NCBI RefSeq assembly: GCF_002688585.1
Contig: NZ_CP024034.1
Location: forward strand, 859,501-923,500
Direction: 5' to 3'
Source of the DNA: Candidatus Fonsibacter ubiquis
GTDB taxonomy: Bacteria > Pseudomonadota > Alphaproteobacteria > Pelagibacterales > Pelagibacteraceae
Length of the DNA: 64,000 nt
The notes beneath the pieces were generated by a model, which made no database searches, was not told where the DNA came from, and worked only from the letters and a program-made list of their open reading frames with translations. Of the stretch, positions 14,384-18,018 are shown one piece after another. The position numbers were made by a program, and so were the translations under genes. Position 1 is the stretch's first letter, and the number at the start of each line of letters is the position of its first letter.

Positions 14384-14418
14384 AAAAAACCCCGGACCGA
14401 AAATCCGGGGTTTTTTTT
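14384..14418. terminator. Strong hairpin terminator between groEL and hisG, probably bidirectional
   Basis: The arms CCCCGGA (14390-14396) and TCCGGGG (14404-14410) form a perfect 7-bp GC-rich stem with a 7-nt loop. Six As precede and eight Ts follow, so the stem can extend as A-T pairs and presents a U-run to transcripts from either strand. It lies between the convergent ends of groEL (14347) and hisG (14421). It is the clearest intrinsic terminator in the window. Confidence 0.92.
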
Positions 14419-14420
14419 GA

Positions 14421-15089
14421 TTATTTTAGAAGATTTAAAAATTTATTTTTTTTAATTTTTCTAGAAACAAAAATACAAGCAGAACTCTTTAGTATAATTC
14501 CATCATTTATAATCCTTAAATTATTAGCTTTTAAAGTTGAGCCTGTAGAAGTTATATCGGTGATCAATTCGGAAGAACCAGTGAATGGGTAGGACTCTGT
14601 TGCTCCTGAACTTGGAACAACTCTAAACTGACTTACACCCTTTGATAAAAAGAAAGACTCGGTCAAATTGGGATATTTTGTTGCAACTCGCATTCGACGT
14701 CCATATTTTTCTCTAAATTCAAAACTAACTTCTTCTAAATCGGCCATATTCTGAACGTCTAACCAATCTTTTGGTACGGCAACTACTAAATCTGCAAAAC
14801 CAAAATTAAGTTTTTTAAAAATTTTTACATTTTTAGAGTAAACATCGGGTAACTCTTTTAATATATCAAGTCCTGAAATACCAATGTCTAAAGTGCCATC
14901 ATTTACTCTTTCTATTATTTCTCTAGCGTGTAAAAAAATCCCGTCTAATTCATTATTATTTTTAATATTAAAAAAATAATTTCTTTCCCCAAAAGAATTT
15001 ATTACCTCTAAATTTTTACTTTTTAGAAAAGCTAAAGTTTCATCTTTTAACCTTCCTTTACTTGGCAAACCAATTTTTATTTTTGACAT
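14421..15089 (-). CDS. hisG: ATP phosphoribosyltransferase, short catalytic form
   Basis: HisG joins ATP and PRPP, the first and feedback-controlled step of histidine synthesis. At 222 residues this is the short form that lacks the C-terminal regulatory ACT-like domain and needs HisZ. It starts KIGLPSKGRLKD; the PRPP-binding loop region ITDITSTGSTLKANNL is near the end, preceded by SSGATESYPFTGSSE. It lies 4 bp downstream of hisZ, consistent with a HisG-HisZ hetero-octamer. It is the last gene of the tRNA-His-hisS-hisZ-hisG string and stops 2 bp past the shared terminator. Confidence 0.95.
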   Translation of the reverse strand: MSKIKIGLPSKGRLKDETLAFLKSKNLEVINSFGERNYFFNIKNNNELDGIFLHAREIIERVNDGTLDIGISGLDILKELPDVYSKNVKIFKKLNFGFADLVVAVPKDWLDVQNMADLEEVSFEFREKYGRRMRVATKYPNLTESFFLSKGVSQFRVVPSSGATESYPFTGSSELITDITSTGSTLKANNLRIINDGIILKSSACIFVSRKIKKNKFLNLLK

Positions 15090-15093
15090 ATCT

Positions 15094-16182
15094 TTATAAA
15101 TTAATTAATTCATTTAAATTAATTGCTCCGCCAATAGCTGGTATATCCTTCTTGTAACCAAGAGTTCTAAGCAAACCGTTATATTCTCCTCCTCTTGCTA
15201 ATTCGATAATTTTAGAATTTCTTTTTACATAAGCTAAAAAAACTACGCCTGTATAATAATCTGTGTTTCTTCCAAAATTAGTTTTAAAATTAATAGAGTA
15301 TTTCTTTCCTATATCTTTATCTATTGCGCTAATTTTCTTTAAATAATTCTTAATAGATAAGTTGCTTAATTTATTTTTTGAAAAAAAAGATGATATTATA
15401 CTTTCTGCTTTCTTAATTGAGGTGTTGATGTTTAAAAAATCTCTAATAATTTTAACATTTCTTTTACCTTTATAATCATCTCTGGGGTCTTTAATTTTTT
15501 TATTGAAACGTTTGATAATCTCAGAAACTGCTCTTCCTCCAATTAAACTACTCTGATCAAGTTTTTCTAAATCTTTAAGTCTTTTTGTATCTAATTTAAT
15601 TGCTTGCTGATCTAGATCGTAATTTGTCTCTAATCTTTTGAGCATATCTTCAAAATATTCTCTTCTAGAAAAATTTTTTACTAATCTTAATTTCCATCTA
15701 GCTGGAAGTTCTAAAGATTCTATTAAAATTTTAAATAAGCCAACGTCGCCTAAAATCACTTCTAAATTTTTAATTTTTTTTAGTGGTTCTAATATAGAGT
15801 TAATTAAAATATTTTCTGATTTATTGTTATTAGAATTTATGATTTCACATCCTATTTGATCAAAAACTTTTAGATCTCCATCTTTATCTAGTCTATAAGC
15901 ACTGCCATAGTAACAATACTTTTCTTCTTTATTTTTTTTTTCCTGAATATATTTTAATGCTGTTGATACTGTTAAATCAGGACGTAAACTTATTTCTTTT
16001 CCAAATAAATCTTTATAAGTTAATGTGAATTTTTTAAATTGTTCTCCTGATCGCTCAGTTAACAAACTAGTATCAATTAAAAGGTCTAAATCTGTAAAAT
16101 TAAATTTATTTTTTTTAAAATAATTTAATATTTTTTTAGAAAGTTCCTCCTTTAATTTTTTTTTTTCTAAACCCTGTTTCAT
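15094..16182 (-). CDS. hisZ: ATP phosphoribosyltransferase regulatory subunit
   Basis: HisZ is a HisRS-like protein without synthetase activity that activates short HisG and confers histidine feedback. The 362-residue product has the HisRS-fold segments LLTERSGEQFKKFTLTYKDLFGKEISLRPDLTVSTALKYI split across the N-terminal half, GDVGLFKILIESLELP, and the C-terminal YYTGVVFLAY and GGEYNGLL. It overlaps hisS by 1 bp. Its start region contains an 11-nt T/A run (16156-16166). Paralogy with adjacent hisS is evident but the two are well diverged. Confidence 0.88.
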   Translation of the reverse strand: MKQGLEKKKLKEELSKKILNYFKKNKFNFTDLDLLIDTSLLTERSGEQFKKFTLTYKDLFGKEISLRPDLTVSTALKYIQEKKNKEEKYCYYGSAYRLDKDGDLKVFDQIGCEIINSNNNKSENILINSILEPLKKIKNLEVILGDVGLFKILIESLELPARWKLRLVKNFSRREYFEDMLKRLETNYDLDQQAIKLDTKRLKDLEKLDQSSLIGGRAVSEIIKRFNKKIKDPRDDYKGKRNVKIIRDFLNINTSIKKAESIISSFFSKNKLSNLSIKNYLKKISAIDKDIGKKYSINFKTNFGRNTDYYTGVVFLAYVKRNSKIIELARGGEYNGLLRTLGYKKDIPAIGGAINLNELINL

Positions 16183-17618
16183 TATACAATCTCATTCAAA
16201 AGTTTATCTAAAGCTACTGTTTTTTGTGATCCAGAGTAATCTTTCCAATCATCTCTATCTTTAAGAGAGTCAGACATTTGCTTGCCAATTTCTAAGTTTT
16301 TAATTGTAACTAAATTCTTACTTACTTCATCATCACCACACAGAATGACATAATTACATCCTCGTTTGTCTGCATACTTTAATTGTGATTTTATATTTGC
16401 GCTTCCTGAATAAATTTCAGCACTAATATTTTTTGTTCTTAGTAAATTTAAAATATTCACATAATAATCCATGTATTTTTCATCAAAAACACATATTAAG
16501 ATTGGAGTTTTTTTTTCAACTTTAATTTTATTTTTTTGGAGAATTACATAAATTAACCGATCAAGACCAACTGAAATACCTGTGGAGGGACACTCTTGGT
16601 TGTTAAAACGTTTTACAAGATCATCATATCTACCACCGCCACCTATTGAACCAAATTCAATCTCTTCTCCTTTGTTATTTTTAATACCAAATGTAAGATT
16701 GGCCTCAAAAATTGGGCCTGTATAATACTCAAGTCCTCTAACAACAGTCGGATCGAAAATAAAATTATCAAATTTTAGTAATGAAAAATATTTTTTTATT
16801 AAAGTAAGTTCATTTACTCCATCTAGTATAGTTTGATTATTTGCAGCGATTTTTTGTATTCTTGCAAAATTATCATCAGAAAGATTTTTTATACTTAAAA
16901 AATCAATTATTTCTCTAATTTGAGTTTCATCTAACTCGGCCCCTTTAGTAAAATCCCCAGATTTATCTTTTCTACCCTTTCCTAAAAGATATTGAACACC
17001 CTCTAACCCAACTCTATCTAGCTTATCAATCGCTCTTAGTGCTATTGACTGTTTATCTTCATCTTTAATATTTAGCTTTTCTAGTAATCCTTTGGTTAAT
17101 TTGCGGTTAGAAATTTTAATTATAAATTCTTTTTTTGTTAAACCGCAACCAATTAAGATCTCAGAGATCAAACAACATAATTCTGCATCAGCAAATAAAT
17201 TATTTGTTCCTATATAGTCTGCATCAAATTGTATAAACTCTCTAAGTCTTCCAGGGCCCGGCTTTTCATTTCTCCAAACTGTTCCTAGTTGATACCTTTT
17301 AAAAGGTCTTGGAAGGTTATTAAAATTTTTAGCTGCATATCTAGCTAATGGAGCTGTTAAGTCATATCGTAAAGAGAGCCATTTTTTATCATCTTCGAAA
17401 GAAAAAACTCCCTCCGATGGTCTATCTTTATCAGGCAAAAATTTACCAATACTATCGGTAAATTCGAAACTAGGCGTTTCAAGATATTGAAAGCCGTATT
17501 TAACCATGACCTTTTTAATATTAAAAATTAAAAGATCTCTAGCTAATAACTCCTCTTCTTGCCTGTCTATAAAACCTGCTGGTAACTCACTGCTAGGTTT
17601 AAAAGTTTTTTTATTCAT
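16182..17618 (-). CDS. hisS: Histidyl-tRNA synthetase
   Basis: HisRS charges tRNA-His. I start it at the ATG at 17618, giving 478 residues; the open frame continues upstream but only through the tRNA-His gene. Motif 2 reads YQLGTVWRNEKPGPGRLREF followed by IQFDADYIG; the histidine A site is GLEYYTGPIFEA, and motif 3 is GGGRYDDLVKRF plus TGISVGLDRLIY. The RNEKPGPGR...QFDAD form differs from the E. coli RHERPQKGRYRQF type and fits the divergent HisRS known in alphaproteobacteria whose tRNA-His lacks G-1. Only 5 nt separate the encoded tRNA-His CCA end from this ATG, and no Shine-Dalgarno fits there. Confidence 0.95.
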   Translation of the reverse strand: MNKKTFKPSSELPAGFIDRQEEELLARDLLIFNIKKVMVKYGFQYLETPSFEFTDSIGKFLPDKDRPSEGVFSFEDDKKWLSLRYDLTAPLARYAAKNFNNLPRPFKRYQLGTVWRNEKPGPGRLREFIQFDADYIGTNNLFADAELCCLISEILIGCGLTKKEFIIKISNRKLTKGLLEKLNIKDEDKQSIALRAIDKLDRVGLEGVQYLLGKGRKDKSGDFTKGAELDETQIREIIDFLSIKNLSDDNFARIQKIAANNQTILDGVNELTLIKKYFSLLKFDNFIFDPTVVRGLEYYTGPIFEANLTFGIKNNKGEEIEFGSIGGGGRYDDLVKRFNNQECPSTGISVGLDRLIYVILQKNKIKVEKKTPILICVFDEKYMDYYVNILNLLRTKNISAEIYSGSANIKSQLKYADKRGCNYVILCGDDEVSKNLVTIKNLEIGKQMSDSLKDRDDWKDYSGSQKTVALDKLLNEIV

Positions 17619-17623
17619 TAATT

Positions 17624-17700
17624 TGGTACAGCTGGGTGGATTCGAACCACCGACATCTGGTTCCACAAACCAGCGCTCTAACCAACTGAGCTACAGCTGC
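17624..17700 (-). tRNA. tRNA-His (GTG anticodon)
   Basis: A 77-nt cloverleaf with encoded CCA. Acceptor arm GCAGCTG/CAGCTGT pairs with a terminal G-T; the anticodon loop is TTGTGGA on a 5-bp stem CTGGT/ACCAG; the T arm is GGTGG-TTCGAAT-CCACC. The discriminator is A73 and the base before position 1 is T, so it has neither the C73 nor the encoded G-1 of canonical tRNA-His. This is the alphaproteobacterial type. It lies directly upstream of hisS on the same strand. Confidence 0.97.
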
Positions 17701-17744
17701 ATGTTTTTTGTTTATAATATTATTTTGTTTTTAAATATATAATT

Positions 17745-17810
17745 CTAATAGCTAAGCGCATGCTCAGCATGAGGATGATGTCTGTGAGTAGATATATATT
17801 TTTTTATCAT
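17745..17810 (-). CDS. Candidate His-rich leader peptide upstream of tRNA-His-hisS-hisZ-hisG
   Basis: An ATG at 17810 opens a 21-codon frame ending in TAG. Its centre reads THRHHPHAEH, with five His codons (CAC and four CAT) in nine positions, far above what this AT-rich genome gives by chance. It lies 44 bp upstream of tRNA-His on the same strand and within the likely transcript of hisS-hisZ-hisG. The end of the frame overlaps two mutually exclusive hairpins (17751-17768 and 17759-17771). This resembles ribosome-stalling leader peptides of amino-acid operons. Against it: no Shine-Dalgarno and no U-run after the hairpins. The opposite strand gives a Met-rich mirror frame. Confidence 0.35.
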   Translation of the reverse strand: MIKKYISTHRHHPHAEHALSY

Positions 17811-17860
17811 TTCAATTAGGGGTTGATTATCAATCTGATAATGAAATTGCAAATAAAAAA

Positions 17861-17936
17861 TGGTGGTCTGAGCTGGAATTGAACCAGCGACACAAGCCTT
17901 TTCAGGGCTCTGCTCTACCAACTGAGCTACCAGACC
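17861..17936 (-). tRNA. tRNA-Phe (GAA anticodon)
   Basis: A 76-nt cloverleaf with encoded CCA. Acceptor GGTCTGG/TCAGACC, discriminator A; anticodon stem-loop GAGCC-CTGAAAA-GGCTT with anticodon GAA; T arm GCTGG-TTCAATT-CCAGC. A 7-bp inverted repeat ATTATCA/TGATAAT (17826-17842) lies about 19 nt past its 3' end but lacks a U-run. In many alphaproteobacteria tRNA-Phe sits near infA-maf-rng-yacG; here a GT17 gene lies between it and maf. Confidence 0.97.
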
Positions 17937-18018
17937 ACGGGACATTCTTTTTTCACAAAACAATTTATTAATCAATTAAAATTATTGAAAAAATTTTAAG
18001 TTAACTGTTAAAATAACC

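Follow-up and report, generated by a model that had tools for sequence, protein, structure and literature searches.

In enterobacteria, the his operon is preceded by hisL, a short frame with multiple histidine codons that is followed by hairpins and operates through ribosome stalling (PMC9413887). The locus described here, from a SAR11 bacterium, resembles hisL (Rfam RF00514) in having a frame of histidine codons followed by a hairpin, with stalling as the proposed sensor, and differs from it in that the leader targets tRNA-His and hisS first, is predicted to be near-leaderless and has no terminator/antiterminator pair. Control of a tRNA synthetase by a leader peptide is exemplified by the E. 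coli pheST attenuator, in which pheM reportedly responds to phenylalanine through an intrinsic terminator, with no tRNA gene in the unit; the SAR11 unit likewise has a leader peptide before a synthetase gene, but adds a tRNA gene and has no intrinsic terminator. Going by their description, the predicted histidine leader peptides of bacilli also place histidine codons before hisS-family genes (hisS*/hisZ), but they were found via premature terminators and the section on hisS describes no tRNA gene (Naville and Gautheret 2010, PMC2965389), whereas the SAR11 leader precedes tRNA-His. Within the Alphaproteobacteria, the Rhodobacterales cysS leader uORFC-8-2 shares with our locus a synthetase gene, an upstream frame of cognate codons and a hairpin; unlike the SAR11 leader it concerns cysteine and its hairpin ends in a U-run terminator, and no tRNA gene is mentioned in the passages concerned (PMC8632094). 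The S. meliloti trpL leader peptide RNA starts at its ATG, i.e. it is leaderless, yet it differs from the SAR11 leader in having a transcription terminator and in controlling trpE(G) (PMC7298713).

In the open-licence PMC literature, we found neither a description of the SAR11 histidine leader nor a leader peptide with the cognate tRNA gene as its first target. The intergenic regions of P. ubique were listed after removal of those containing tRNA genes, according to Meyer 2009 (PMC2704228), and this may explain why the leader escaped notice.

Results and Discussion

A histidine-rich frame in front of tRNA-His, hisS, hisZ and hisG

Few cells in the sea are as numerous as those of SAR11 bacteria, which have lost most of their regulation. 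The window under study, i.e. the whole 64 kb stretch of DNA analysed, belongs to a freshwater SAR11 with a genome of 1.16 Mb in one contig; the named organism with the most similar HisS is Candidatus Fonsibacter, at 91% identity. The relevant features of the window are collected in Table 1. The ORF translation of the window yields the frame MIKKYISTHRHHPHAEHALSY, with 21 codons, five of them for histidine, and a TAG stop that is separated by 44 nt from tRNA-His. Reading the window letters again thus reproduces the frame of the original prediction, and the window annotation confirms the same-strand order of tRNA-His, hisS, hisZ and hisG that it had given; a tRNA-Phe gene (17936-17861, minus strand) stands upstream of the leader on the same strand. 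The only ORF of 8-45 residues in the window with at least five histidines per 10 residues is the one that contains MIKKYISTHRHHPHAEHALSY, the mean expectation from 20 dinucleotide shuffles of the window being 0.0. A short ORF of cognate codons directly upstream of genes for the same amino acid is what characterises the attenuator class, and this is the arrangement found here. No leader peptide was seen before pheS, ilvB or trpE of the same genome.

Table 1. Position of the leader, its associated elements and the downstream genes within the window
Feature	Coordinates	Strand	Remarks
-35-like hexamer TTGCAA, leader promoter	17847..17852	-	box pair in 62/64 leaders
-10-like element, GATAAT (17831-17826) or TAATCA (17829-17824)	17824..17831	-	ends 13-15 nt before ATG
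Histidine leader peptide ORF MIKKYISTHRHHPHAEHALSY	17745..17810	-	kept in 71/71 + 90/90 family loci
Possible long-range helix P1 (17801-17789 with 17747-17733)	17733..17801	-	encloses His codons and P3; tentative
Hairpin P3, GCTGAGC-ATGC-GCTTAGC	17751..17768	-	directly after fourth (last conserved) His codon
A+T-rich spacer without structure, P3 to tRNA-His	17701..17750	-	conserved TAnnAT(AAA) at 17719-17714
tRNA-His (GTG)	17624..17700	-	first gene 3' of leader
hisS	16182..17618	-	ATG 5 nt after tRNA-His CCA
hisZ, ATP phosphoribosyltransferase regulatory subunit	15094..16182	-	best NCBIfam matches, all under curated cut-offs
hisG, last gene of unit	14421..15089	-	present in 21/21 relatives with long enough contig
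Hairpin with T-runs on both sides	14390..14410		read from sequence; likely bidirectional terminator shared with groEL

The gene order is stable among relatives, hisZ lying 3' of hisS in 26/26 named relatives and hisG following in 21, while the other five contigs end first. Of the 64 distinct leaders, 63 have a gap of 4-6 nt between tRNA-His and the start codon of hisS, and the remaining one (L022, see below) has 11 nt; among the 87 loci retrieved automatically in a further sample, in which the nearest ATG was taken, nine have gaps of 12-13 nt, and three loci assigned by eye have longer ones. A gap of 4-6 nt leaves almost no room for a separate hisS promoter or ribosome site, and excision of tRNA-His probably makes the 5' end of the hisS mRNA in one event.

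Conservation of the histidine codons

We have collected the region 5' of tRNA-His from relatives, obtaining 76 loci with tRNA-His, of which 71 are from Pelagibacteraceae. All of these 71 have a short ATG frame with at least two histidine codons and a stop 42-56 nt 5' of the tRNA, while the five loci without such a frame all come from a second family of the order. Removal of duplicates from the 71 loci leaves 64 distinct leaders, in which histidine is encoded 137 times by CAT and 100 times by CAC. Their peptides, which include MKNIVLNHTHHHTHAKHGLGN, MIKNLKIINILNAKHHFAHARLLLS, MLTRINIAISHTHSHRVHARLLLS and MNKFVIINRQTHRHHFHAGCKLAI, vary in sequence and length with the histidine codons kept, CAT and CAC replacing each other. 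A histidine leader was likewise found in 90/90 additional family genomes (sixty of the family and thirty of one genus picked for a weak HisS match), 87 by the automatic filter and three, L331, L337 and L339, which failed it, by eye. A histidine-rich leader peptide before tRNA-His-hisS-hisZ-hisG, as originally proposed, is thereby borne out across the family. What had been named as speaking against it was that relatives with an unchanged distance between tRNA-Phe and tRNA-His should have lost the histidine codons; the leaders L001-L017, which have the same spacing as the window (152-163 nt), retain them.

Considering the 145 distinct leaders altogether, the number of histidine codons is one in a single leader, two in eleven and three to six in the others, so that 144/145 have at least two. 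The 12 leaders with just one or two count against the sensor model. Across genera the N-terminal residues, the length and even the sequence of the following stem change, and the histidine codons stay.

A divergent leader, MLKKALFHIIPHHGF, with three histidine codons and the same tRNA spacing, was observed in L022, on an odd contig (G005:C19) of a Fonsibacter-group MAG. Its HisS is ~60% identical to that of the Fonsibacter group, and some bases 3' of its hairpin there is a stretch of eight T; it represents another lineage, perhaps from contamination, whose layout comes closer to that of a terminator. It was excluded from the P3 and P1 counts with shuffled and mismatched partners given below; L019, whose contig ends before tRNA-His, was left out as well.

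A predicted promoter next to the leader start

Upstream of the leader ATG, 62/64 distinct leaders (all except L011 and L023) have a TTG[ACG][AT] box and a TAnnnn/NATAAT box, 15-18 nt apart and at a near-fixed distance from the ATG; for L046, an inner ATG 18 nt 3' of the first one was taken for both promoter and structure counts. The position of the TTG box peaks 34-37 nt 5' of the ATG and is 42 nt in the window's group, and the -10-like hexamer ends 6-8 nt 5' of the ATG in other genera and 13 nt in the window's group. A consensus promoter scan of the window returns a site that overlaps TTGCAA, at a frequency which, taken alone, corresponds to chance. In those 62 leaders the promoter-like boxes set the position of the ATG independently of the reading frame. 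We infer from this arrangement a candidate sigma-70-like promoter that would make the leader frame near-leaderless, the predicted RNA start being at or beside the ATG in most genera and about 6-8 nt before it in the window. The lack of a Shine-Dalgarno sequence, already recognised as a weak point of the original prediction and evident in the window sequence, would follow from such a near-leaderless start. A T-run (17855-17860) lies directly 3' of the tRNA-Phe CCA, and transcription of the preceding unit possibly ends there, ahead of the promoter of the leader.

One conserved hairpin at the last histidine codon

The hairpin P3 comprises 7 pairs in the window (17768-17762 with 17757-17751) and is part of the minimum-energy fold; its pattern is found in 144/145 distinct leaders, so this one of the two hairpins originally put forward holds well. 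Its 5' arm starts at or inside the last conserved histidine codon. The stem occurs in several versions (GCTRRGC/GCTTRGC, GCTGGC/GCTAGC, ATAGCC/GGCTAT, ATGGCT/GGCCAT and others; GCAAGC/GCTTGC in L331, by eye), and since it is wholly different in some lineages and yet pairs, it is the pairing that is kept and not the sequence.

The leaders of one large group can form an additional hairpin, P2, whose three-base loop is a histidine codon. Across 19 distinct segments, P2 and P3 together have standard pairs in 96.8% of the cells and two pairs altered on both sides, and their covariation score was reached by 0/500 shuffles of these 19 distinct sequences. As related sequences can beat such shuffles, more weight is given to slid controls, which pair in 18-40% of cells as compared to 97% in the true register.

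The long-range helix P1 is part of the minimum-energy fold of the window, and its duplex is better than with shuffled partners (p<=0.05) in 26/63 leaders, 10/13 in the window's group. Mismatched partners pair as well as the leader's own in 4-22% of cases, and a clear advantage of the own partner is not seen in all groups. With such partial support we have discarded P1 as a universal helix.

The spacer between P3 and tRNA-His

The absence of a U-run terminator, which the original prediction had also noted, is substantiated: the region 17600-18000 has 0 terminator-like sites, and no GC-rich hairpin followed by a U-tract was found before the first gene. The normal-looking intrinsic terminator after hisG makes clear that such signals exist elsewhere in this genome. 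The mean folding z-scores of the spacer range from +0.4 to +1.1 by group. In each of the five leader groups the spacer thus has less structure than its shuffles, and we have for this reason rejected a terminator or antiterminator located 3' of P3 and ahead of the tRNA; folding against shuffles detected no competing or antiterminator hairpin 3' of P3 in any of the five groups.

At the gathering score, the window has no match to RF00514 and no T-box riboswitch before the synthetase. Neither RF00514 nor T-box matches were obtained in 17701-17860 with the threshold set at E<=10, or in seven related loci with E<=5, and no Rfam family matches the leader in the searches of the window and related loci.

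Within the spacer a TAnnAT element is conserved in the leader groups, about 22 to 19 nt 5' of tRNA-His. It may act as another promoter from which transcripts would skip the leader, a point that counts against the sensor model. Its interpretation as a general -10 box of tRNA genes was abandoned, as the flanks of other tRNA genes in the window's genome show no clear pattern.

Proposed mechanism and its alternatives

That the conserved leader is a histidine sensor appears to us nearly secure. Taken together with its target, a ribosome-mediated histidine sensor for tRNA-His-hisS-hisZ-hisG is a probable reading, while the specific model in which P3 is masked during transcription stands evenly poised in our judgement. 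In this model, a promoter just 5' would give a near-leaderless transcript that opens with the short histidine-rich frame, in line with the comparison among leaders, and the leading ribosome would translate the histidine codons during RNA synthesis. With charged tRNA-His in ample supply, the ribosome would pass and be released at the stop codon, which lies within P3 or immediately 3' of it, and P3 would fold; with charged tRNA-His scarce, it would stall on the histidine codons and mask the 5' arm of P3, because the last conserved histidine codon abuts that arm, and P3 would be blocked. Formation of P3 would mean less, and its blocking more, transcription into tRNA-His-hisS-hisZ-hisG, and a single leader would in this way jointly raise the tRNA, the synthetase and the first enzyme of the pathway. 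Given that P3 has no U-tract, its action would have to be non-canonical: it could make the polymerase pause, terminate transcription with the help of a factor, or affect the processing or decay of the RNA; as far as the sequence goes, a plain intrinsic terminator at the leader is excluded.

Rather than termination, the state of the leader ribosome could govern cleavage or decay of the precursor, namely the 5' processing of pre-tRNA-His and the release of a near-leaderless hisS mRNA. Such a post-transcriptional scheme agrees with the missing terminator and with an A+U-rich, unstructured spacer before the tRNA, as well as with the short distance between CCA and hisS in 63/64 leaders, by which tRNA excision would form the hisS 5' end; nevertheless, the sister family retains leader and hairpin without an intervening tRNA, and we see the scheme as unlikely, if quite conceivable. 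Another possibility is that two promoters are at work, TAnnAT driving most of the expression of tRNA-His-hisSZG and the leader governing only an extra transcript induced by starvation. We regard this as rather improbable, since the near-fixed position of TAnnAT ahead of tRNA-His among the leader groups, which favours it, is offset by the lack of a -35-like partner recognisable by eye and by the inconsistent occurrence of the box at other tRNA genes of the window's genome.

Much less tenable is a classical his-type attenuator, in which the two overlapping hairpins exclude each other, as envisaged in the original prediction, and one of them acts as terminator. Both hairpins can indeed be written in the window letters, but the second one (CATGC-TGA-GCATG) is not conserved, its form CATGC-NNN-GCATG being present in just 9/145 leaders as against 144/145 for P3, so that only one partner of the presumed switch persists; with no U-tract, no intrinsic terminator around the leader and a stretch from P3 to the tRNA less structured than shuffles, we consider classical transcription attenuation very improbable. 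Finally, a chance histidine-rich frame, its conservation owed to the tRNA 5' flank or the hairpin alone, can practically be dismissed, for although copies within the window's genus are closely similar, shuffles predict none, the histidine codons outlast changes in N-terminus, length and stem across genera, and the sister family has a histidine leader of its own.

Origin of the leader and its occurrence in other lineages

In several genomes of the second family, tRNA-His stands beside tRNA-Phe, apart from hisS. There hisS has its own, very short leader at a distance of 88-136 nt upstream, for example MFKFKHHHYHI or MLIIKHHHSHI, and a hairpin of 9-11 bp comes next; leader and hairpin occur in 8/8 genomes with a hisS match, of 10 tested. 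The simplest history suggested by these arrangements is that the hisS leader predates the tRNA link and that tRNA-His was inserted later between leader and hisS; the reverse order may also apply. In these sister-family loci (L205-L212) the leaders have 11 residues ending in HI, about 90-135 nt 5' of hisS, and the hairpin is followed by a conserved ACCCC stretch, which is unusual for such A+T-rich DNA.

Among the Pelagibacteraceae, HisS is divergent in 35 of the genomes examined, several of which have a visibly different tRNA-His, and the leader and P3 are still present. In these (L215-L219 and L310-L339, from one SAR11 genus) the tRNA/synthetase pair looks to have been replaced under a resident leader; some of their tRNA-His genes were missed by ARAGORN. 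Joint change of HisRS and tRNA-His in alphaproteobacteria is known in general terms from an earlier study (PMC3937112).

Returning to the masking model, its broadest form is that translation of the histidine codons in a leaderless leader of Pelagibacteraceae determines how much there is of the tRNA that reads those codons, along with the synthetase and the first enzyme, via a terminator-free switch of one hairpin masked by the stalled ribosome, and that this loop stayed while tRNA-His and HisS changed. We advance this tentatively, judging it just short of an even balance. If true, it would be a rare case of tRNA supply set by the translation of the tRNA's own codons, and an attenuator-like device without recognisable terminator, with a histidine sensor kept across the SAR11 family and a tRNA gene and synthetase as one unit.

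Outside the order, we have analysed 70 regions upstream of hisS, drawn from 138 genomes with a match, 68 of which are valid (L054 and L064 are mis-registered at contig ends). None has a tRNA before hisS and histidine-rich ORFs occur at chance level (sense 4, antisense 9), and a broader class extending beyond the order was hence rejected. Viral contigs gave three distant hisS matches alone, which were left out of the comparison. Among 54 named loci outside Pelagibacteraceae, five, all Caulobacterales-type, have a leader of the form MTR/MTT...HHHGH (MTRATHHGHTHH) before hisS with no tRNA, and this leader looks unrelated to that of Pelagibacteraceae. In these loci (L167, L186, L192, L194 and L199) it lies about 80-280 nt 5' of hisS; the hairpins there are apparently alternative to each other, and a U-tract is missing. 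A match to the Rfam sRNA family CC3513 falls at the leader site of L192, on the opposite strand.
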